Source of the DNA: a virus
Virus record (IMG/VR): IMGVR_UViG_3300011116_000790
Span: 1 to 20,814 of that record
Length of the DNA stretch: 20,814 nucleotides
Reading direction: 5' to 3' (one strand)
The stretch's first letter is position 1, and every line of letters starts with the position of its first letter. Below are positions 2,907-20,719 of the stretch, one piece after another. A program made the position numbers and the translations under genes. A model generated the notes under the pieces. It did no database searches. It saw nothing but the letters and a program-made list of their open reading frames with translations, and had not been told where the DNA came from.

Positions 2907-3092
2907 TTAGATTTCATAATCTGGAAACAAATATGTAAAACATTTTTTCAATTCATCATCCTCTAAATCAGAAATAGCCAAAGAAGGATCTTTCTTCTCC
3001 ATCAATTTAAAAACAAGAGCAACTTTTTCTTCGCCGAATATTCTTTTTGCTTCATCAACAGTTTTTGATTTAATTACGGTCATTTTAATCAT
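2907..3092 (-). CDS. Hypothetical protein, 61 aa
   Basis: The family is not recognised. It is a small acidic helical protein (D-E-A-K-R-I-F-G-E-E-K, then S-D-L-E-D-D-E-L-K-K-C) with no membrane segment. The first ATG (3090-3092) overlaps the smpB stop by 8 bases; a second ATG at 3081-3083 lies one base after that stop and gives a 58-residue protein, and either could be used by coupling. Its place directly after smpB and before the terminator makes it the last gene of the clpP-smpB transcript, so an accessory role there is possible but not shown. Confidence 0.65.
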   Translation of the reverse strand: MIKMTVIKSKTVDEAKRIFGEEKVALVFKLMEKKDPSLAISDLEDDELKKCFTYLFPDYEI

Positions 3093-3507
3093 ATTTCTTC
3101 ATTTCTCTTGATAAATCCCTCTCCTTAATCGCTTCTCTTTTATCCCAATTTTTCTTTCCTTTTGCTAAAGCTATCTCGACCTTAATCTTGCCCTTCTCGT
3201 TCTGGTAGATCCTAATTGGGATGATGGTTGTTCCTTTATCTGAAGAGCTTTGGATCTTTTGAATTTCTTTCTTTTTTAATAGAAGTTTTTTATCTCTTTT
3301 TGGATCGTGCTGAAAAGAACCAGGCCTTATTGAAATCTCAAGTGATTTAATCCATATCTCTCCCTTACTGATGTAACAGAAGCTATCCACAAGATTGACT
3401 TTCAGCTCTTTGATTGATTTCACTTCTGATCCAAGAAGTGAAATCCCGGCACTAAATTTCTCAATGAAAAAATAGTCAAATTTGGCTTTTCTGTTTATAA
3501 TCTGCAC
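3085..3507 (-). CDS. smpB: SsrA-binding protein SmpB
   Basis: SmpB binds tmRNA and brings it to stalled ribosomes, where a degradation tag is added to the nascent chain. Conserved blocks run through the whole protein: N-R-K-A (5-8) with D-Y-F-F-I-E, A-G-I-S-L-L-G-S-E-V-K-S (20-31), H-D-P-K-R-D-K-K-L-L-L (67-77), E-I-Q-K-I, K-G-T-T-I-I-P (91-97), and A-K-G-K-K-x-W-D-K-R-E (115-125). The 140 residues cover the OB-fold core; the tail after D-K-R is short (about 17 residues) and lacks the longer basic helix of E. coli SmpB, so tmRNA accommodation might differ. The start is GTG (3505-3507), 5 bases after the clpP stop, indicating coupled translation. A perfect 12-bp inverted repeat lies inside codons 21-31. 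Phage-borne SmpB is uncommon. Confidence 0.95.
   Translation of the reverse strand: MQIINRKAKFDYFFIEKFSAGISLLGSEVKSIKELKVNLVDSFCYISKGEIWIKSLEISIRPGSFQHDPKRDKKLLLKKKEIQKIQSSSDKGTTIIPIRIYQNEKGKIKVEIALAKGKKNWDKREAIKERDLSREMKKYD
3416..3445 (-). repeat. Perfect 12-bp inverted repeat inside smpB
   Basis: GATTTCACTTCT (3416-3427) and AGAAGTGAAATC (3434-3445) are exact reverse complements separated by six bases. They lie 62-92 bases into the smpB reading frame and would form a stable mRNA hairpin. No T-run follows on the minus strand, so it is not a standard terminator. Confidence 0.85.
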
Positions 3508-3512
3508 TATTT

Positions 3513-4196
3513 CTATTTCTTCTTAGATTTCTTCTTAATTATAACTTCGTCAATGATTCCGTATTTAACTGCATCGTTTGCATTTAACCAGAAATCTCTT
3601 GTTGCATCCTTCATAACTTGTTCTGAAGTTTTGTCGCAGTAACCTCCCAATAGATCGAAAAGGATCTGGTTGACCTCTTTCCATTCTTTCATGTCAATCT
3701 CTGCGTCCTGAATATTTCCTCTGAAACCTCCGCTTGATTGGTGGAGCATCACTTTACTGAATCTCAAAGAGCTTCTTTTTCCTTTGGTTCCAGCTCCCAA
3801 TAAAACTGATCCCATTGAAGCTGCCATTCCAGTATTTACTGTCCTAATATCTGCTGTGATGTACTCCATGACATCTATCATAGATAAACCCGATTTAACG
3901 GATCCTCCGGGGGAATCGATGTGCATAGTTATATCTCTATCATCAACAGAATCTAAAAACATTAGTTGAGCCTGAACCACTGTTGACATGTTGTCGTTAA
4001 CCTCACCTGCAACCCAAATTATCCTGTCCATTAGCATTCTTGAGAAGATATCAATTTGTGTTGCTCTTAATTCTCTTTCTTCCAAGATATAAGGAGTCAT
4101 TGAAGACTGAATTTTCTTGTCGAAATAATCTAATTTAAGTGAAGATATACCATGTTCACTTAAAGCGAATTTTTCGAATTCTGATTTTTGATTCAT
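3513..4196 (-). CDS. clpP: ATP-dependent Clp protease proteolytic subunit ClpP
   Basis: ClpP is the barrel-shaped serine protease that degrades substrates fed by ClpX or ClpA, including SsrA-tagged proteins. The catalytic triad is visible and correctly spaced: S127 in G-M-A-A-S-M-G-S, H152 in M-L-H-Q-S-S-G-G, and D201 in A-T-R-D-F-W-L. Oxyanion-loop residues D-S-P-G-G-S-V (94-100) and the C-terminal N-A-N-D-A-V-K-Y-G-I-I-D (205-216) also fit. The 227-residue length, with an N-terminal extension of about 35 residues that may be a propeptide, and a Lys-rich C-terminus (KKKSKKK) are acceptable. No ClpX or ClpA partner is in the window; it may use the host unfoldase. As a phage gene it could serve as a prohead protease, but a typical ClpP beside smpB points to turnover of tagged proteins. 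Confidence 0.96.
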   Translation of the reverse strand: MNQKSEFEKFALSEHGISSLKLDYFDKKIQSSMTPYILEERELRATQIDIFSRMLMDRIIWVAGEVNDNMSTVVQAQLMFLDSVDDRDITMHIDSPGGSVKSGLSMIDVMEYITADIRTVNTGMAASMGSVLLGAGTKGKRSSLRFSKVMLHQSSGGFRGNIQDAEIDMKEWKEVNQILFDLLGGYCDKTSEQVMKDATRDFWLNANDAVKYGIIDEVIIKKKSKKK

Positions 4197-4209: not shown

Positions 4210-4905
4210 TTACGTTTTGTACCACTTTTCCCATTTTTTACTTTTTAACCTTCCTCTTATAGTAGCCTTAGTTATTCCTAATGTTTCAGATGCTATTGCT
4301 ATAGATGGGTAGACAATTCCATCTATTGATATTTTTACCTGATTCCAGACATTCCCCTTCATTTTGTCCGAAAGTTTTTTATTCTTCTTACCTTTTTTAG
4401 ATTCGCTTATTTTGTCCTTTGTTTCTTCTGAATGTTTCCTACCGTACCATGGGTGATTCTCACCGGCCTGAGATTTCTTCATATTTTCTTTATGTGTTTC
4501 AGATAGCTTAATTCCTTTCTTTGCGATTGACATTTTTTCCTTGGTCTCCTCTGAAAATATTCTATTTTTCATTTTCAAACTTTTTTGTTCAGCTATTTTT
4601 TCTATTTCTAGATTGTCTTTCTTGTATATCCAATCCCCACCACCATCTCCACCTAAAGTTAGATTATACCCTTCGTGATAACTGTTGAATTTTTCTATAT
4701 AAAGTTTTTCTAGTCTATTAAGTTCTTCGACATCTTTTATATTATCATGAAGAATAATTCTTTCGAATATCTCCTTTCCGTGTTTTTTAATTATTTTATT
4801 TGGTATAAGACCTCCTGTAAAATAATTCTTTTTACCTCCGTTATGTTTACCGATATATTTCTTCCCATTCCTGGTATCTATTAAAAGATAAATCTGGCCT
4901 CTCAT
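4210..4905 (-). CDS. GIY-YIG homing endonuclease with NUMOD3 repeats
   Basis: The N-terminal catalytic domain (about 1-95) has the two signature elements, Q-I-Y-L-L (4-8) and K-Y-I-G-K (16-20), an E-K-L-Y-I-E-K-F helix (66-73) with the metal-binding Glu, and the closing G-Y-N-L-T-L-G-G-D-G-G. Three NUMOD3-type DNA-binding repeats follow (about 115-131, 132-150, 155-173; S-E-E-T-K-E/D-K-x-S pattern), then a NUMOD1/helix-turn-helix-like end (187-222). This is a free-standing endonuclease that cuts an allele lacking it and spreads by repair. It lies between clpP and an unknown gene with no sign of an intron in either. Composition is Lys-rich and more AT-rich than its neighbours, fitting a recent arrival. 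Confidence 0.94.
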   Translation of the reverse strand: MRGQIYLLIDTRNGKKYIGKHNGGKKNYFTGGLIPNKIIKKHGKEIFERIILHDNIKDVEELNRLEKLYIEKFNSYHEGYNLTLGGDGGGDWIYKKDNLEIEKIAEQKSLKMKNRIFSEETKEKMSIAKKGIKLSETHKENMKKSQAGENHPWYGRKHSEETKDKISESKKGKKNKKLSDKMKGNVWNQVKISIDGIVYPSIAIASETLGITKATIRGRLKSKKWEKWYKT

Positions 4906-7254: not shown

Positions 7255-7836
7255 ATGTCAGAAGTTAAAAAATCACACCTTGTATCAATCATGGGTGCAC
7301 CTTCGAGCGGTAAGAGCACACTAGCTGCTTCAGTTCACCATCAGTTAAAAATAGCTAAGAAGAATTCAATTTTCGTCGGGGAAGCAGCTACTGACTATAT
7401 TGCAGAGTGGGGAATACCAGACACACCAACTGATCAGATTGTTATATTCTATAAACAGCTGGGACGTGAAAGAATGTACTTAGGATCAAAGGAGTGGATT
7501 ATTTGTGATTCGAGTTCTTTGTTAAATTACTTTTACTTCAGAAGCCTATTCGATTCGAAATTATCCCTAAAGGATATTGCGACTATCAACCACATTCAAA
7601 AAGAAATTCTCAAATCTCTAAATCAATGGCACAAAATCTACTATGTGCCACCATTTCTTGAAGGCGATGAGAATGACGGGATAAGATACCATAACAAAGA
7701 ACAGATTCTAAGATTGGATGGTATTATTAAAAACTATTTGGAGTTAGAAAAAATTCCTTATGTCGATCTTTCTAAAATACACATCTCTGAAAGAGATGAA
7801 TGGGTAGTAAATGATTTGGTTGGGACTAAGGGTTAA
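7255..7836 (+). CDS. NadR-like P-loop kinase/ATPase (AAA_28 type)
   Basis: The Walker A motif is G-A-P-S-S-G-K-S-T (14-22), as in the ribosylnicotinamide-kinase domain of NadR. W-I-I-C-D-S-S-S (81-88) fits the Walker B/substrate Asp region, and Y-Y-V-P-P (129-133) followed by D-G-I-R (141-144) matches the lid region of the NadR/AAA_28 group; a C-terminal I-P-Y-V-D-L-S strand completes the fold. At 193 residues it is a stand-alone kinase domain without the NadR nucleotidyltransferase or HTH. A role in phosphorylating a nicotinamide nucleoside would fit the NAMPT gene in this window, but the family is broad and the substrate is inferred. It is a lone plus-strand gene whose last 11 bases overlap the convergent gene ending at 7826. 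Confidence 0.8.
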   Translation: MSEVKKSHLVSIMGAPSSGKSTLAASVHHQLKIAKKNSIFVGEAATDYIAEWGIPDTPTDQIVIFYKQLGRERMYLGSKEWIICDSSSLLNYFYFRSLFDSKLSLKDIATINHIQKEILKSLNQWHKIYYVPPFLEGDENDGIRYHNKEQILRLDGIIKNYLELEKIPYVDLSKIHISERDEWVVNDLVGTKG

Positions 7837-11138: not shown

Positions 11139-11329
11139 TTTATCATCTCCTTAAATATTCTTTTTATTTCCTTATCGAGATAATTCCAATCATCCAATGT
11201 GAAAGTTATTTGATCCTCTTTAGAGTCATTAATAGAAACTTCTATGTATCCCTCACATACTTTTACATCTAAGTAAGTACCTCCCTCATCTCGAAATGAT
11301 ATTTCCTCTATCTTTCTGGTTAGTGGCAT
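11135..11329 (-). CDS. Hypothetical protein, 64 aa
   Basis: The family is not recognised. A small acidic beta-rich protein (I-S-F-R-D-E-G-G-T-Y-L-D-V-K-V, then Y-I-E-V-S-I-N-D) ends in a helix (W-N-Y-L-D-K-E-I-K-R-I-F-K-E-M). The frame is open further upstream to 11440, but that part overlaps the capsid-like gene and reads unlike protein, so I take the ATG at 11327-11329 (M-P-L-T-R-K). That still leaves a 44-base overlap with the capsid-like gene. Its stop overlaps the glycosyltransferase ATG (ATGA). Confidence 0.6.
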   Translation of the reverse strand: MPLTRKIEEISFRDEGGTYLDVKVCEGYIEVSINDSKEDQITFTLDDWNYLDKEIKRIFKEMIK

Positions 11330-12230
11330 AGTCTTTCTTTTTAAATAACTTATTCCAAAGATGTGTGAAAACGTTGTGGACTTTGTCTGTGAATTCAAAA
11401 CCGAAATATTGTAGGTGCACGTTTTCTGTCGGATGAACAACCATTCTTTTTCTGAGAACAGTCAGATTGTAAGGCATTAGAGTTTTTTCGTCAACGATTT
11501 CAGTGTTCAGAATTTCTGGATCCATGTGAACATAAAAAATTGCTTCTGATGATTCCTGAGAATTTTTACCTAGAATGACCGACATGTCATCATATCTTAA
11601 ATTTGGATCAATTAAAACCTCAAGTGAAGTTCCAATTTGACCAACCCTATAAACAAATCCAGAAGCTTGTTCTAATTGTGGCTGATTTGGATCGTTGTAT
11701 ACGAATTGGGGTAGATCCATAATTCTTGTTGCCAACCCAGCTGAAACAATAACGTAATTAGCTGGACCAAGTCTAGAATCTTTAGCTATCATGTTGGAAT
11801 AAAACATCAGATATCTGATGATATCTGATTCCTCTTTTATTCTTTTTTTAGGAACAAAAGAAAACCAATCATCCATCAGGGTTTGGAATTTGCTGAATGT
11901 CATTTTGTAATGCTGTTCTCCAGCATATCTCATGATGTCCTTGATAAGTTTTTCGGTTTGCATTTCAGATTCATTTTCCAAAGTTGATTGTAACATTCCT
12001 TGAAAATCAAATTCAACCCCATGGAGATGTGATAAATCAGCGATTTGCTCTTTTGGGACTTTCGATTTAACCTGAAAGGTTTCTAATGTAAGTGCTTTTC
12101 TTTTAGTTGCTAATTTCAGTTGTTCAAATCCATCTTCATCCTTGCCATCTGATTCAGGAGTGAGGTAAAATATATCTACTACTCCTGCTTCAGCCTTACG
12201 GCTTAAGATTCTTTTTTTAATTTCTTTCAT
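11286..12230 (-). CDS. T4 gp23-like capsid protein paralogue, 314 aa
   Basis: Several blocks match the T4 gp23/gp24 fold pattern: A-T-K-R-K-A-L-T-L-E (41-50) leading to P-K-E-Q-I-A-D-L-S-H-L-H-G-V-E (59-73), then E-S-E-M-Q-T-E-K-L-I (87-96), corresponding to the gp23 helix region T-L-E-M-A-Q-D-L-K-A-M-H-G-I-D; G-P-A-N-Y-V-I-V-S (155-163); V-G-Q-I-G-T-S-L-E-V-L-I-D-P (196-209); and A-I-F-Y-V-H-M-D-P (230-238) with a C-terminal L-R-K-R-M-V-V. At 314 residues it is far shorter than gp23 (521) or gp24 (427) and lacks a typical prohead N-terminus. It could be a minor or vertex capsid protein. It is embedded among nucleotide and glycan genes rather than head genes. The ATG overlaps the upstream gene by 14 bases. 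Confidence 0.65.
   Translation of the reverse strand: MKEIKKRILSRKAEAGVVDIFYLTPESDGKDEDGFEQLKLATKRKALTLETFQVKSKVPKEQIADLSHLHGVEFDFQGMLQSTLENESEMQTEKLIKDIMRYAGEQHYKMTFSKFQTLMDDWFSFVPKKRIKEESDIIRYLMFYSNMIAKDSRLGPANYVIVSAGLATRIMDLPQFVYNDPNQPQLEQASGFVYRVGQIGTSLEVLIDPNLRYDDMSVILGKNSQESSEAIFYVHMDPEILNTEIVDEKTLMPYNLTVLRKRMVVHPTENVHLQYFGFEFTDKVHNVFTHLWNKLFKKKDYATNQKDRGNIISR
11806..11829. repeat. 14-bp palindrome with 10-bp tandem copy in the capsid-like gene
   Basis: ATCAGATATCTGAT (11806-11819) is a perfect palindrome, and its last ten bases, GATATCTGAT, are repeated directly at 11820-11829. It lies inside coding sequence (around residues 134-142), so it may be chance; a DNA-binding site is possible. 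Confidence 0.7.
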
Positions 12231-14597: not shown

Positions 14598-14858
14598 TTA
14601 TTGAATTGAATTTTTCTTAAGATTGATGTTCAAAGAATCCACTATGATGATTGCTCTGCCCCAGTTAATATCTGGTGACAGAGCTATAATGTCATCTGGT
14701 CCGTTGTCAATATTAACCCTGATTTTAGGAACTCCTTGACTGTACTCACCAGAGAGTTGATATTCGATAACTCTCTTCGGTGCTGTAGCGTAGTAAATAC
14801 CTAATCCCAAAAGGGTCGAGATGACTAGCATCAAAAAATATTGCCAAACTTTTTCCAT
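14598..14858 (-). CDS. Small single-pass membrane protein, 86 aa
   Basis: The family is not recognised. One N-terminal hydrophobic helix (about 6-24, F-L-M-L-V-I-S-T-L-L-G-L-G-I-Y-Y) acts as anchor or uncleaved signal; about 60 residues that are probably periplasmic follow, beta-rich with P-K-I-R-V-N-I-D-N-G-P-D-D. No lipobox Cys is seen. The ATG overlaps the stop of the NAMPT gene by one base (TAATG), indicating coupled translation, and the SPFH gene follows 22 bases later. A partnership with the SPFH protein is plausible from position alone. Confidence 0.75.
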   Translation of the reverse strand: MEKVWQYFLMLVISTLLGLGIYYATAPKRVIEYQLSGEYSQGVPKIRVNIDNGPDDIIALSPDINWGRAIIIVDSLNINLKKNSIQ

Positions 14859-16414
14859 TAGATTATTGAATTAATGCGGTTACGAATTTCTGTTAATGTT
14901 GCCTGATTATGGAAGTGTCCATCTTCGTAAATCGTTTGAAGAATTCCTCCAGCTTCTTCTTCTGGAGTACATTGGGTCTTAACCTCGTACTTCGTGTAGG
15001 TCTTGCCGGTTTCTTCAGATGTTGCTGTGATTTCATCCACTCTAATAAGACCTTTCAAAGATTTTTTAGTACCATCATCGGTTACTGGATCTTTGTAGAT
15101 GTCGTAACAAACTTTTTTGTAGACAGGAGTTCCTTCAGGTGTTATCCAATCAATTTCTTCTACCTCAAACCAAGCTCCCTTAGCTGCAAACCCTAATGTG
15201 TCTCGTGTGTTCATTTGGTATGTGAAAGAACCTACACCCAATACAATGTTAGTTGCAGCAAATCCTTTTGCTTCCAATCTTTCGTAGATTTGGATTTGAC
15301 GATCCAATGTGATTGAATCTCCGTAGATGGCTCCGATGTGCGGGTCAAGAACTTTATAACCTTGTTCGTTAACTGTACCTCCGAAAATATCCCAAAGAAG
15401 TTCAATAACGCCTTTGTAAGATGGATGGTTCGCTTGTTCTGCCGAAAACATTTCTGGACGAGTGTTTAATCCGCAGATAATATCTACTGGATCACCTGAA
15501 TCAGGTCTAATTACCAATTTACCATCTCTAGCCATAATAGCTTCTTTATTAGCTGGTAAATATTCAGTGATTAATTTCCAAAGGTCGAACGTGTCGCTAA
15601 CAATACTCAAAATTCCTTTAGGGAAATCTGTTAGCCAATCAGCGATCATTTGTTGTTCACCAACGGTAAAGATCTTAGTGGTTGATACAGAGTGCTCTGA
15701 TGCGTTCACCGAGTATATCGCAACCTGATCTTTAGGCTCATCGTAGAAGTAACGTGCTCCAGGGATACAGATAATTGTATCCGATCCTAAGAATGATGAT
15801 GCGTGTCCTAATCCACTTGATAACATATCCCAAGGACTTAGACCTCGTGCTGAGAAGTCGTGACAAAGGAAAGGAATCAGGAAAGCGTTAGATGGATCTG
15901 TTTTCATAACCCATTTCACAACGTTTCTCTTGTATTGAAGAGCGATGGTTGCAGAGGTTGAAGGCTTCCATGCTAATGAAGAAATGATGGTTTCCAAATA
16001 AAGTGTTAACCAAGCAAATCCATCCACGGTGTTAATAAAGGTCATATGAGGCACGTTAGGCTGTGTCTCGATTCCTTCCGGTAAAGCTTTTACCCTGATT
16101 GGTAGATAACCCAAATCATACAAAGCTTCGAAGTGAGAGGCATCGTAATTCATACCCAAATACATAGACATATCCTTTCCGAATTGCATAGCTTCTGCTT
16201 TTGGAATGCTGAAGAAGTTTTCTGCGAATTCGTCATGGAGCCATCTCATGGCCAATTGCTGGCCAAATGATAAAATTCTTTGCACTCCTTTAGGTGCGTG
16301 TTTGATGCTGCGGGGAATCCAAGTTCCGTAAAGACGGGTGGTTCCTTTAGCCAACATCCTCTTATGGCCAATCTTGTAACCATCGGTGTAAAATAAAGTT
16401 GAAGGTTTGAACAT
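14858..16414 (-). CDS. nadV: Nicotinamide phosphoribosyltransferase-like enzyme (NAMPT/NadV; candidate Namat of NARP1)
   Basis: The enzyme joins nicotinamide to a pyrophosphorylated ribose. With PRPP the product is NMN; in the NARP1 pathway NAMPT-like Namat uses ADP-ribose-pyrophosphate and makes NAD+ directly. Visible sites (numbered from the ATG at 16412-16414) are F-Y-T-D-G-Y-K-I-G-H (8-17, with the substrate-binding D11), H-D-F-S-A-R-G (185-191), the catalytic His in S-E-H-S-V-S-T (H241), R-P-D-S-G-D-P (303-309), G-D-S-I-T (365-369) and G-S-F-T-Y-Q-x-N-T-R-D (395-405). The 518 residues are slightly longer than human NAMPT (491) and look complete. The frame opens earlier at a TTG (16447), but the ATG fits the family start and a TAnnTTTG element 31 bases upstream. 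Sequence alone does not separate NMN-forming from NAD+-forming members. Confidence 0.95.
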   Translation of the reverse strand: MFKPSTLFYTDGYKIGHKRMLAKGTTRLYGTWIPRSIKHAPKGVQRILSFGQQLAMRWLHDEFAENFFSIPKAEAMQFGKDMSMYLGMNYDASHFEALYDLGYLPIRVKALPEGIETQPNVPHMTFINTVDGFAWLTLYLETIISSLAWKPSTSATIALQYKRNVVKWVMKTDPSNAFLIPFLCHDFSARGLSPWDMLSSGLGHASSFLGSDTIICIPGARYFYDEPKDQVAIYSVNASEHSVSTTKIFTVGEQQMIADWLTDFPKGILSIVSDTFDLWKLITEYLPANKEAIMARDGKLVIRPDSGDPVDIICGLNTRPEMFSAEQANHPSYKGVIELLWDIFGGTVNEQGYKVLDPHIGAIYGDSITLDRQIQIYERLEAKGFAATNIVLGVGSFTYQMNTRDTLGFAAKGAWFEVEEIDWITPEGTPVYKKVCYDIYKDPVTDDGTKKSLKGLIRVDEITATSEETGKTYTKYEVKTQCTPEEEAGGILQTIYEDGHFHNQATLTEIRNRINSII

Positions 16415-16444
16415 ACTATTAATATTTTTTATAATATTGAACTG

Positions 16445-16452
16445 CAAAGATA
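16445..16452 (-). promoter_or_regulatory. Bacteroidota-type -7 element TATCTTTG before the NAMPT gene
   Basis: TATCTTTG on the minus strand matches TAnnTTTG and lies 31 bases before the ATG at 16414, in the 63-base gap after the HAD gene. No TTG is seen at the -33 spacing. It would give NAMPT and the downstream genes expression independent of the genes before them. Confidence 0.4.
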
Positions 16453-18643: not shown

Positions 18644-19123
18644 TTATGAGTTTTTTATCTGTTGTTTAACTAAAGTAATTGACCATCCTAAAAGATTTAG
18701 TCCTTTCCAATTTGCTGGATCGTCTACTCCCGGATCTTGCTCCGACATTCCAATTCCCCAAATTTTATCCAAAGGTGAAGCTTCAACGAGAAGTCTGTCA
18801 CCAGTAGAGAGAAGCTCTTCCATCAAATCTGGATTTTGTGAGAACTTAGCAAAGTTTCCTCTATAAACTATGCCTAAGCAAACTGAATCCCATTTATCCT
18901 TATCGAATCCTTTGATTTGTCTTCCTAGTCCTTTCTGATCTTTTGGATTTGAGGTCTGTAGAACTTTTTCGGCAATCTCAGAATCACCAAAGGTTAAAGC
19001 CTTTTGGTGCATCATGTACTGCTCACAGCAGTTATATTGAACACCGTCTATTGTCATTGGGGCTTTGTGCCATTGTGAGTATATTCCATTCCAGAAAAAT
19101 ACGTGTTTGTTAGTTGATATCAT
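18644..19123 (-). CDS. NADAR-domain protein (YbiA-like ADP-ribosyl glycohydrolase)
   Basis: The domain spans the whole protein: F-F-W-N-G-I-Y-S-Q-W-H (9-19), Y-N-C-C-E-Q-Y-M-M-H-Q-K-A (30-42), F-G-D, K-G-L-G-R (64-68), A-K-F-S-Q-N-P (92-98) and the signature V-E-A-S-P-L-D-K-I-W-G-I-G (113-125). Characterised NADAR proteins remove ADP-ribose from guanine bases, reversing DarT-type DNA modification, and related members process NAD-derived or riboflavin-pathway intermediates. In a phage this would undo toxin-driven ADP-ribosylation and release ADP-ribose, which the PRPP-synthetase-like gene of this cluster could recycle if it is an Adps. The 159-residue length is normal. It is separated by 6 bases from the gene before it. 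Confidence 0.9.
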   Translation of the reverse strand: MISTNKHVFFWNGIYSQWHKAPMTIDGVQYNCCEQYMMHQKALTFGDSEIAEKVLQTSNPKDQKGLGRQIKGFDKDKWDSVCLGIVYRGNFAKFSQNPDLMEELLSTGDRLLVEASPLDKIWGIGMSEQDPGVDDPANWKGLNLLGWSITLVKQQIKNS

Positions 19124-19129
19124 ATTTTA

Positions 19130-19411
19130 TTATTGTTCTTTTGAAATTTTTAACATCTCTTCTAATCCTAGCTCCTGAATCGATATCACCAAATCTGCTA
19201 TTCTGATATCCATATCAAGTTCTTTACAGCAGACTAAAGCAAACTCTTCGCTTATTGTAAATCCAGAATCAACCAAATCAACAGCAAGATCGAATCCTTC
19301 CACAGTAATAACAGGCCCACCCTCTAAAAATCCACCTTCTCTGAGTTTGTTGCAGTAGTAGATGAAAACTATTGCACCGTTTCTATTAATTTCTTCTTTC
19401 CAGTCTATCAT
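19130..19411 (-). CDS. Hypothetical protein, 93 aa
   Basis: The family is not recognised. It is an acidic alpha-beta protein: W-K-E-E-I-N-R-N-G-A-I-V-F-I-Y-Y-C (4-20), a Gly-rich turn (E-G-G-F-L-E-G-G-P), then two similar acidic helices containing F-D-L-A-V-D-L-V-D-S and I-R-I-A-D-L-V-I-S. Three Cys residues have no obvious metal pattern. The ATG overlaps the macrodomain stop (ATGA), and the NADAR gene starts 6 bases later. Its place between two ADP-ribose-processing genes makes it a candidate accessory factor. Confidence 0.72.
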   Translation of the reverse strand: MIDWKEEINRNGAIVFIYYCNKLREGGFLEGGPVITVEGFDLAVDLVDSGFTISEEFALVCCKELDMDIRIADLVISIQELGLEEMLKISKEQ

Positions 19412-19938
19412 GATTTCTTGTATATTACGACCGTGACATCACAGTCTCTAAGTTCCTGTTGAATGATGGCTTTGATTCTGTTCCAATTTCCTCCTGCCAA
19501 GCCTGAACCTATGGCCGGTAGACCTATTCTTTTACCCCTGAATGTGTGATTCATTTTTCTCAGACAAAGAGTCAAAGCTTCGTAATCCAAAGGTCTCGCT
19601 ACACCATCGGAGTGATTTGCTCCGTAGTTGTATTGGCTGTATGAGTTCACCACATACATCTTATGAAGTATCTCATCGCCTTCATCCGGATACCTCTCGT
19701 ACTTCTGATCCCAGCTAGAAAAGAACAAAAGCTCGTAATCAATTGTGCCTAATTTATTAATGTCACCTTTATATTCCTCGCTCTCCATTTTAAAGATATC
19801 ACATCCAAAAGCTTTAGCCATCTGTGGTGCTATTCCAGCTCCCATTGTGCAGTGACAGTTACATCCGTGTGTGATGACGTCGAATTCGAATTGATGAGCT
19901 ATCTGAATTAAATCTCCGTGGATTTCTTTATAAGACAT
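19408..19938 (-). CDS. Macrodomain protein (Appr-1''-p-processing/ADP-ribose hydrolase type)
   Basis: The macrodomain ADP-ribose pocket is visible: G-D-L (8-10), D20 with V-I-T-H-G-C-N-C (21-28), the Gly-rich loop M-G-A-G-I-A (32-37), and the second loop P-A-I-G-S-G-L-A-G-G-N-W (141-152). Family members bind ADP-ribose and hydrolyse ADP-ribose-1''-phosphate, O-acetyl-ADP-ribose or ADP-ribosyl groups on protein or DNA (as DarG does for thymidine). The G-C-N-C-x-x-x-M-G-A-G-I-A version is common in phage and Poa1-type proteins. At 176 residues it is a single complete domain. The start lies one base after the stop of the PRPP-synthetase-like gene, and the next gene overlaps its stop, so the three are translationally linked. 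Confidence 0.92.
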   Translation of the reverse strand: MSYKEIHGDLIQIAHQFEFDVITHGCNCHCTMGAGIAPQMAKAFGCDIFKMESEEYKGDINKLGTIDYELLFFSSWDQKYERYPDEGDEILHKMYVVNSYSQYNYGANHSDGVARPLDYEALTLCLRKMNHTFRGKRIGLPAIGSGLAGGNWNRIKAIIQQELRDCDVTVVIYKKS

Positions 19939-19939
19939 A

Positions 19940-20719
19940 CTAAAATACGTTAAGTTGTTTTAAGTTGATTGGTTTCATGCTTTTAGATGTTCCGACACTA
20001 CCTTCAGGAAGATCCTTAATTGAATTTGTGCAGTATATTCCATCGAAGTGCTCTCCAAGTTCTTCGAATCCTGCACTGAAGATACCATGAGTAACAATTA
20101 GAAATATTTTACCATGTTGATCCGGGTGAACTGCTGAACTTAAACTTCTGGTAATTTTGATGGCTTTAGCAATCTCAATGAATGTGCGTCCACCGTCACA
20201 GATGTCATCGATGATAAAAAGATCCTTGTCAGCATCATGAACTGAAAGAGGAACTGAAGTGTGTGTGATTTGTCCACTCACAGGATCACGATGTTTGGCT
20301 GCAATAACAATTTCATGTTTTAGACCAAATTTTTCTGAAATATGATAGACCTTTTTCAAAGCACCAGCATCAGGAGAAACCAATCTAACATTTGTGAAAT
20401 CATAATAAATATCTAGATCATCGAAATAATCATTAAATGCGAAGTCAACAACTTCCGAGTTGTCGATTTTTTTGAAGTGATCTATGCATGCCTCAAGAAC
20501 ATCAGAATGTGGATCCACGATTTCAACCTGACTGAATTTTTGAAGATTGATGATAGGTGCAATAACATTCTTGATGTAGTTGAAACCTCCATCTGAAAAC
20601 TTCCTGTCTGATCTTCCGCCAATACAATATGGAATGTAAAGATCAATATTCTCAACACCAAGTTCTCTTAGTGCGTGGGTTGCTCCAATGATTAATTCCA
20701 AATCCTTGAAGCTATTCAA
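19940..20719 (-). CDS. prs: PRPP-synthetase-like enzyme (candidate Adps of NARP1), C-terminal part after an in-frame stop
   Basis: Family marks include I-P-Y-C-I-G-G-R-S-D-R-K-F (29-41, equivalent to I-P-Y-x-x-Y-A-R-Q-D-R), V-D-P-H-S-D (83-88), V-S-P-D-A-G-A-L-K-K, K-H-R-D and the PRPP-loop motif D-D-I-C-D-G-G-R-T (about 191-199). PRPP synthetases move pyrophosphate from ATP to ribose 5-phosphate; the related NARP1 enzyme Adps does so to ADP-ribose. The usable start here is a TTG (20717-20719), but the same frame upstream reads R-V-K-I-K-S-R-L into it, which belongs to the family fold, and is cut off by TAA at 20750-20752. Beyond that stop the frame again carries family sequence. A protein begun at TTG would lack part of the N-terminal ATP-binding half, so activity is doubtful unless the stop is bypassed or is an error. 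Confidence 0.85.
   Translation of the reverse strand: MNSFKDLELIIGATHALRELGVENIDLYIPYCIGGRSDRKFSDGGFNYIKNVIAPIINLQKFSQVEIVDPHSDVLEACIDHFKKIDNSEVVDFAFNDYFDDLDIYYDFTNVRLVSPDAGALKKVYHISEKFGLKHEIVIAAKHRDPVSGQITHTSVPLSVHDADKDLFIIDDICDGGRTFIEIAKAIKITRSLSSAVHPDQHGKIFLIVTHGIFSAGFEELGEHFDGIYCTNSIKDLPEGSVGTSKSMKPINLKQLNVF

Follow-up and report, generated by a model that had tools for sequence, protein, structure and literature searches.

The window analysed here is the complete IMG/VR record IMGVR_UViG_3300011116_000790, a phage fragment of 20,814 bases which carries, side by side on its minus strand, the genes clpP, coding for the ATP-dependent Clp protease proteolytic subunit, and smpB, coding for the binding protein of transfer-messenger RNA (tmRNA). 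We consider it fairly probable that these two genes belong to a ribosome-rescue and Clp proteolysis set of huge phages, in which SmpB would serve a phage tmRNA with a re-designed tag. The clpP gene (3513..4196, 227 amino acids, ATG start) comes first and smpB (3085..3507, 140 amino acids, GTG start) follows the clpP stop after a spacer of 5 bases (3508..3512; 6 bases in the relative L059); both open reading frames (ORFs) are real at the positions given in an earlier note made from the sequence of the window. The fragment comes from a very large phage, probably infecting Bacteroidota. The closest bacterial SmpB proteins (best 80 of at least 586 bacterial relatives) are mostly from Bacteroidota, and other window genes, for a gp23-type capsid protein, a nicotinamide phosphoribosyltransferase and an SPFH/Band 7 protein, fit a large myovirus-like phage.

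The comparison of the two proteins with family models gave scores far beyond chance. The window SmpB reached 165.4 bits against PF01668 (cut-off 27, E 9.9e-49) and exceeded the curated cut-offs of the TIGR00086 equivalog (166.9 versus 119.1 bits) and of NF003843 (164.4 versus 130), and the motifs KGKK and DKR are present, in line with the core motifs noticed in the earlier note. The window ClpP scored 193.1 bits against PF00574 (5.3e-57) and exhibits the stretches of the Ser-His-Asp triad that had likewise been claimed, with MAASM from position 124, HQ from 152 and DATRDF from 197; the GMAASM, HQ and TRDFW stretches align with solved ClpPs, and we take the catalytic residues to be those lying within these motifs. 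The PDB sequences matching it numbered 110, and the 60 listed were all named Clp protease subunits. The best NCBIfam model was NF011091 (221 positions) with 240.2 bits, under its cut-off of 361, and TIGR00493 gave 192.3 bits, under 308.6, the test for a cellular ClpP equivalog. Because it falls under the cut-off of NF011091 itself, the protein is described here as a divergent ClpP and not filed as a cellular equivalog.

We then compared the loci of relatives, the searches having returned the best 80 of 455, of 579 and of at least 586. Among the 191 loci retrieved and the window, smpB was found in 100 and clpP in 95. Apart from the window, 9 distinct contigs had the two genes directly adjacent with order and strand preserved, and a tenth contig (L118, 348 kilobases (kb)) has between them a 283-amino-acid ORF that by eye resembles a uridine diphosphate (UDP)-sugar dehydrogenase. 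The order of the surrounding genes in the window (capsid gene, orf118, orf79 and orf161, orf88, orf147, a kinase, orf114, clpP, smpB, orf61, orf128, orf103) is largely common to the relatives, with orf79 and orf161 swapped and some genes absent in single relatives. In the SmpB tree, nine phage rows form a clade (support 95/90) that joins the window to L118 and to 7 of the 9 adjacent contigs; the remaining two adjacent contigs have an SmpB identical to that of L056, which was entered once. Because the SmpBs of the adjacent contigs group with that of the window, we regard the pair as one old arrangement, a single origin being the simplest reading and not a proof, since the SmpB tree has few columns. 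Within the clade, identity to the window is 54-60% for SmpB and 79-91% for ClpP, and ranges from 31% to 87% for the other neighbouring proteins, several of them under SmpB.

The earlier note had held that its reading would be refuted if related phages carried the two genes only far apart. The outcome is mixed: the genes are adjacent in the clade of the window, but 9-35 kb or more apart in its cousins (about 9.4 kb in L139-L141, about 10 kb in G010 and G011, about 20-22 kb in G012, G013 and G026, about 34 kb in G019 and more in G014-G017) and more than 100 kb apart in the Lak phages, LR756504 and LR745206. LR756502 has two strong clpP genes more than 200 kb from smpB and a weak ClpP-family match (94 bits) at 2.6 kb from it, and no clpP match was found in LR756501. 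Among 80 bacterial smpB loci with flanks of up to 6 kb, none had clpP nearby. The pairing might be incidental, with ClpP acting for another purpose, such as the removal of host or phage regulators or capsid processing, and smpB parked beside it. The restriction of the adjacency to one clade, the ORF that interrupts it in L118, the gp23-like capsid gene 7 kb away and the best PHROG matches of the window ClpP, which are head maturation proteases, would fit such an explanation; however, the ClpP models gave 240 bits against 67-68 for the head-maturation models (NF045542, 66.8 with a cut-off of 120; NF045540, 68.3 with a cut-off of 475 bits), which disfavours a head-maturation role. In addition, clpP lies on the same strand as, and at most 2.3 kb from, the gene of a ClpC-like unfoldase in G020 and G022-G025, and the pair was kept in its own clade while SmpB diverged. 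An incidental pairing appears to us rather unlikely on this evidence.

The question of whether a tmRNA accompanies smpB was addressed in relatives. In the window, itself a fragment, ARAGORN reported only a tRNA-Met. Twenty-five IMG/VR records were hand-picked from 158 loci for length and closeness; they are neither random nor dereplicated, they may be fragments, and they are partly redundant, as G007-G009 share tag and tmRNA and G014-G017 are close kin. A tmRNA over the Rfam cut-off was found in 16 of the 25, and G012, G013 and G015 gave a full-length match under it. A tmRNA gene thus accompanied smpB in 17 of 19 records (14 over the cut-off and 3 full-length under it), compared to 2 of 6 records devoid of smpB (G021 and G024). 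In the clade of the window, 4 of the 5 records searched contain a tmRNA, the fifth being 65 kb long. All four clade contigs of more than 100 kb (G002-G005) have it at 77.8-80.2 kb from smpB, on the strand of clpP-smpB, with 48.1-70.9 bits against RF00023 (gathering score 47), a G3-U70 acceptor and a tag frame. The phage tmRNA that the earlier note had supposed to be encoded elsewhere is therefore present in these relatives. Outside this set, a tmRNA over the cut-off was found in four of eight records (seven from huge phages, plus the 12-kb contig of L002), namely LR756504 and the three Lak phages examined. The complete 7-bp acceptor with G3-U70, the pair that marks alanine identity, was present in all 22 phage tmRNAs read, and is formed by differing base pairs.

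Two divergent candidates were observed besides these. A DNA search of the G002 tmRNA against public phage records at E 1e-4 matched only about 60 bases in LR745206. There, a tmRNA-like gene unreported by the Rfam search (LR745206.1, about 204891-205275; L405 392-776) has a 29-amino-acid frame ending in EEPATV rather than AA, and its T-loop reads GGCGGTA instead of TTCGAAT although arm and acceptor pair. LR756501.1, a 735-kb phage with smpB, gave a full-length low-scoring match (718388-718731, minus strand, 21.1 bits), possibly another divergent tmRNA.

The tags encoded by the phage tmRNAs were found to be long. In the 22 sequences read, the tag has 25 amino acids in 11 (GKKSVWDAINSFGTPVTEVEYAYAA in G002), 24 in two and 22 in four (GNVLNKMALVGLVRQDELVNVA type); that of LR756504 has about 24 by eye, and three Lak phages and L195 have short tags. 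The tmRNA of G026 (L205) was left out of this reading and the tag of its contig was taken from L350. The 25-amino-acid tag of the clade is conserved and starts at the usual resume codon; its GKxN start and xAxAA end are like those of Bacteroidota tags, and it contains a conserved 16-amino-acid insert (VWDxINxFGxPVxEVE type). For comparison, 30 tmRNA loci were taken from 33 Bacteroidota genomes behind smpB loci (L388, L395 and L404 left out as unread), and 27 of the 30 encode 9-10 amino acids. ARAGORN called 26 of these tmRNAs, with 24 tags of 9 amino acids, e.g. GENNYALAA; its two other calls were implausible, and these two loci and one without a call were read by script, giving 9-10 amino acids. 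The resume codon is GGC at position 93-105 in the Bacteroidota tmRNAs, and GGC or GGA at position 91-97 in a similar A/T-rich context in the phage ones.

ARAGORN gave only the last 8 amino acids for three 25-amino-acid tags, gave both 24-amino-acid tags in full, and made no call for the remaining 25-amino-acid tags nor for those of 22. The short calls (EVEYAYAA, EVEYAVAA) were rejected because the resume codon stands in its customary position and no stop interrupts the 25 codons that follow in frame. Among 9 distinct 25-amino-acid tags, the tag frame is open in all 9, and the other two frames are stopped in 9 and in 8. The third-position excess was mild (13, 9 and 17 variable columns of 25 at codon positions 1-3), and a synonymous/non-synonymous count failed to separate frame 0 from frame 1; neither was used as evidence. 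Pattern searches with the three long-tag types led to 23, 27 and 40 viral contigs; together, the types of 22, 24 and 25 amino acids occur in 90 IMG/VR contigs, not dereplicated. Since each pattern was derived from known tags, only similar tags can be detected in this way. The full acceptor with G3-U70 stood at the right distance in 78 of 80 evaluable matches. Automatic tag calls can thus shorten or miss long tags.

These results bear on the idea of a dosage help, by which phage SmpB would serve the tmRNA and ClpXP of the host and sustain rescue through a long infection, clpP being unrelated. We hold this to be unlikely: a conserved tag that differs from the host kind, and a tmRNA in 17 of 19 smpB-bearing records, among which are the four clade contigs longer than 100 kb, speak against it, even if SmpB retains its general motifs, the window shows no tmRNA and none was found in the smpB-bearing G006 and G018.

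The C-terminal part of SmpB was then considered, since the earlier note had described a short tail and had proposed from it tmRNA binding without normal accommodation. In the window SmpB the tail AKGKKNWDKREAIKERDLSREMKKYD, with the layout KGKK-N-W-DKR, extends 19 residues beyond Trp121, the equivalent of E. coli His136. The number of residues after this position is 18-32 in phage SmpBs (median 20; motif readable in 106 of 110 rows, a count that includes the window and some contigs more than once) and 16-28 in bacterial ones (median 21; 74 of 80 rows), which rules out a short tail. Aligned with the 144-residue Thermus chain 1j1h, query residue 136 corresponds to chain residue 141, leaving 4 residues against 3, so that the window tail is one residue longer. 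With a tail of ordinary length and intact KGKK and DKR, the proposal on accommodation finds no support. Truncation of the SmpB tail abolishes tmRNA activity, and the His136Tyr change in E. coli has a minor effect only, according to passages of a review (PMC4151336).

A recount on distinct sequences (71 phage, 78 bacterial), made since the rows of the tail count repeat some contigs, showed Trp at the decoding position in 12 of the 71 and in none of the 78. Because the clade mates of the window SmpB have Tyr there, we regard this Trp as a small curiosity. It could nevertheless be cited, together with the loops, which one alignment showed to be 3 residues shorter in each of its 9 phage rows than in three SmpBs of Bacteroidota, in favour of an interference by which phage SmpB, as a decoy occupying host tmRNA or ribosomes, would block host rescue. 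Such a role seems highly improbable, since the parts needed for accommodation (KGKK, DKR and the full tail) are intact, an aromatic residue at this position matters little in E. coli as reported in the same review, the clade mates have Tyr, and the phage tmRNAs keep G3-U70 and their reading frames.

The partner of ClpP was sought among unfoldases. The pairing with ClpX put forward in the earlier note did not hold for the clade: no clpX over the cut-off was found in the 25 chosen records, G002-G006 included, which may be fragments, and the unfoldase found is of the ClpA/B/C type. In the eight other records, clpX was present in two (Lak-B5 and LR756504) and split by an insert in Lak-A2 and Lak-C1. 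The weak clpX matches led to the ClpC-like gene, whose product, with open frames of 659-721 amino acids, was found in 15 of the 25 records (counting G024, the query's own record), with strong matches also in 4 of 7 records of huge phages. Two of the proteins were tested and each showed two AAA+ domains and a D2-small domain; Clp_N was absent from the 23 families matched by one of them and from the 25 listed, out of 27, for the other, that of the clade mate G002. The G002 protein matches PF00004, PF07724 and PF10431 and has the docking-type tripeptide in GGMGF (L370). As it falls under the ClpA and ClpB equivalog cut-offs, it is described here as of the ClpC/ClpA type rather than assigned to an exact subfamily. 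A tripeptide of the [IVM]GF type docks on ClpP, and one was present at the expected place in 15 of 17 parsed ClpC-like proteins, two more being unparsed.

The ClpC-like gene overlaps clpP by one base in G024 and lies 1.3-2.3 kb from it on the same strand in G020, G022, G023 and G025. In one lineage (G014, G016 and G015; L473, L475 and L474), the ClpC-like gene, tmRNA and smpB stand within 6.0, 6.3 and 9.4 kb, with other genes intervening; smpB lies on the opposite strand and converges with the tmRNA at a distance of 0.45-0.9 kb, and the 22-amino-acid tag ends in VNVA rather than AA. The ClpC-like gene is 2.5 kb from the tmRNA in G017, where smpB is far, and 3.7 kb from smpB in LR756504. Different lineages therefore bring two or three of the four pieces together as neighbours, and G002 possesses the whole set of clpP, smpB, long-tag tmRNA and ClpC-like gene. 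The Lak phages have ClpX, short tags and no strong ClpC-like match. As a separate observation, ClpX of Prevotella phage Lak-C1 (L021 1459-3654, minus strand; record 60423-62618) contains in the Walker B region an in-frame, intein-like insert of about 300 amino acids with the junctions FLDE/CFDGNTEV...VTVTGN/CDK, and Lak-A2 gives the same split, as judged from the match only.

The preferred explanation, a phage rescue and proteolysis set, would operate as follows. Once expressed, the phage SmpB would bind the tmRNA of the same phage, which is predicted to lie outside the fragment, about 80 kb away, and would bring it during infection to ribosomes that have stalled because their mRNA is broken or lacks a stop codon. 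These ribosomes would finish on the reading frame of the tmRNA, adding a tag of about 25 amino acids, and the tagged products would go to the phage ClpP, probably together with the phage ClpC-like unfoldase or with a host unfoldase. More speculatively, the tag insert may be read by the phage unfoldase and ClpP, or may act as a shield against host ClpXP. The bolder reading, which we put forward as tentative, is that of a tag-and-destroy line parallel to the host's, in which the tag would have been lengthened from 9 to about 25 amino acids and the insert would be a degron for the phage ClpP with its ClpC-like unfoldase devoid of N domain, or that shield.

Several points weigh against the preferred explanation. 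ARAGORN found no tmRNA inside the 20.8-kb window, nor was one found in two smpB-bearing records, the 65-kb G006, which belongs to the clade, and the 175-kb G018, and G021 and G024 have a tmRNA without smpB. The adjacency of clpP and smpB probably goes back to one evolutionary event, and in the other huge phages examined the two genes are apart. The search for the ClpC-like gene found none in 10 of the 25 records, including G003-G006 from the clade as well as G008, G010 and G011 (344, 271 and 319 kb), and the five records with clpP beside it (G020, G022-G025) have no smpB. Nor does co-occurrence, which is weak, bear out a simple link between the long tag and the ClpC-like gene: the gene is present in 10 of the 18 long-tag records (G002-G005, G007-G017, G019, G021 and G026) and was not found in G003-G005, G008-G011 and G026, some of which are perhaps fragments, G008 sharing its tmRNA with G007, which has the gene. 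Conversely, the gene is accompanied by a long tag in 10 of its 15 records and by a short one in G024, and no tmRNA was found in the other four.

Concerning the neighbouring genes, a 61-amino-acid ORF (2907..3092, minus strand) overlaps the end of smpB by 8 bases and is conserved nearby in several relatives. It was considered as a third operon gene and rejected, because an ORF of the opposite strand separates it from smpB in L118 and L059. Directly upstream of clpP lies the gene of a GIY-YIG-type homing endonuclease with NUMOD3 and an I-TevI DNA-binding domain (4210..4905, minus strand), which has a 66% identical counterpart at the same place in L137 (9290-9979); it is a separate selfish element, and the two occurrences suggest homing into the clpP flank. 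The gp23-like capsid protein (11286-12230) is short, with 314 amino acids, and shows 42-45% identity among clade mates, beside a neighbouring orf118 with 68-80% and a Band 7 gene with 87%. The window also contains a set of genes related to nicotinamide adenine dinucleotide (NAD) and adenosine diphosphate (ADP)-ribose (14858-16447, 18644-19123, 19408-19938, 19940-20719 and 7255-7836), with a nicotinamide phosphoribosyltransferase (phrog_448, 5e-153), a NADAR-domain protein, a weak macro-domain/DarG-like match, a phosphoribosyl pyrophosphate (PRPP)-synthetase-like protein and an AAA_28 protein. It resembles phage counter-defence sets of NAD+ rebuilding and ADP-ribosylation.

Huge phages have already been reported to encode both tmRNAs and SmpB (Al-Shayeb et al. 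2020, PMC7162821). In that work 'Clp' appears nowhere in the main text, the passages found give no tag sequences, and the tmRNAs were identified with ARAGORN, which here shortened or missed most long tags. For jumbo phages, Iyer et al. 2021 (PMC7824862) noted ClpP, ClpA and ClpX, or AAA+ unfoldases, in a text that mentions neither tmRNA nor SmpB and makes no link to tagging. A phage-borne tmRNA gene, as in the present relatives, is known from mycobacteriophages and phage G (PMC4131195) and from Melnitz (PMC9004378), whereas the passages found describe neither an adjacent clpP-smpB pair nor a long-tag family. Within the literature searched, with supplements and most subscription papers outside reach, no account of long phage tmRNA tags or of the clpP-smpB pair was found, and in the passages found the reason why phages carry tmRNAs is unsettled. 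With a tag that is re-coded and conserved, an SmpB dedicated to it and a Clp protease of the phage itself, this question becomes simple to test.

Compared with bacterial trans-translation, the phage system is alike in the SmpB family and tail motifs, and in relatives' tmRNAs with a G3-U70 acceptor and the usual place of the resume codon. It differs in that it is on a phage, in the tags of its relatives (22-25 amino acids against 9-10 in Bacteroidota) and in the position of smpB beside clpP, an arrangement seen in none of the 80 bacterial loci. The nearest parallel is Mesoplasma florum, whose ssrA tag, of different length and sequence, is read by Lon (review PMC8138137). In both cases the tag of the tmRNA is altered in length and sequence, which in M. 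florum is matched to a different protease; however, that system is bacterial and uses Lon rather than Clp. On the bolder reading, the phage tag would follow that of mycoplasmas as the second tmRNA tag re-coded for a change of protease, and would be the first viral one. If an orthogonal tag and protease do exist here, they might also be used to control the turnover of proteins in Bacteroidota.

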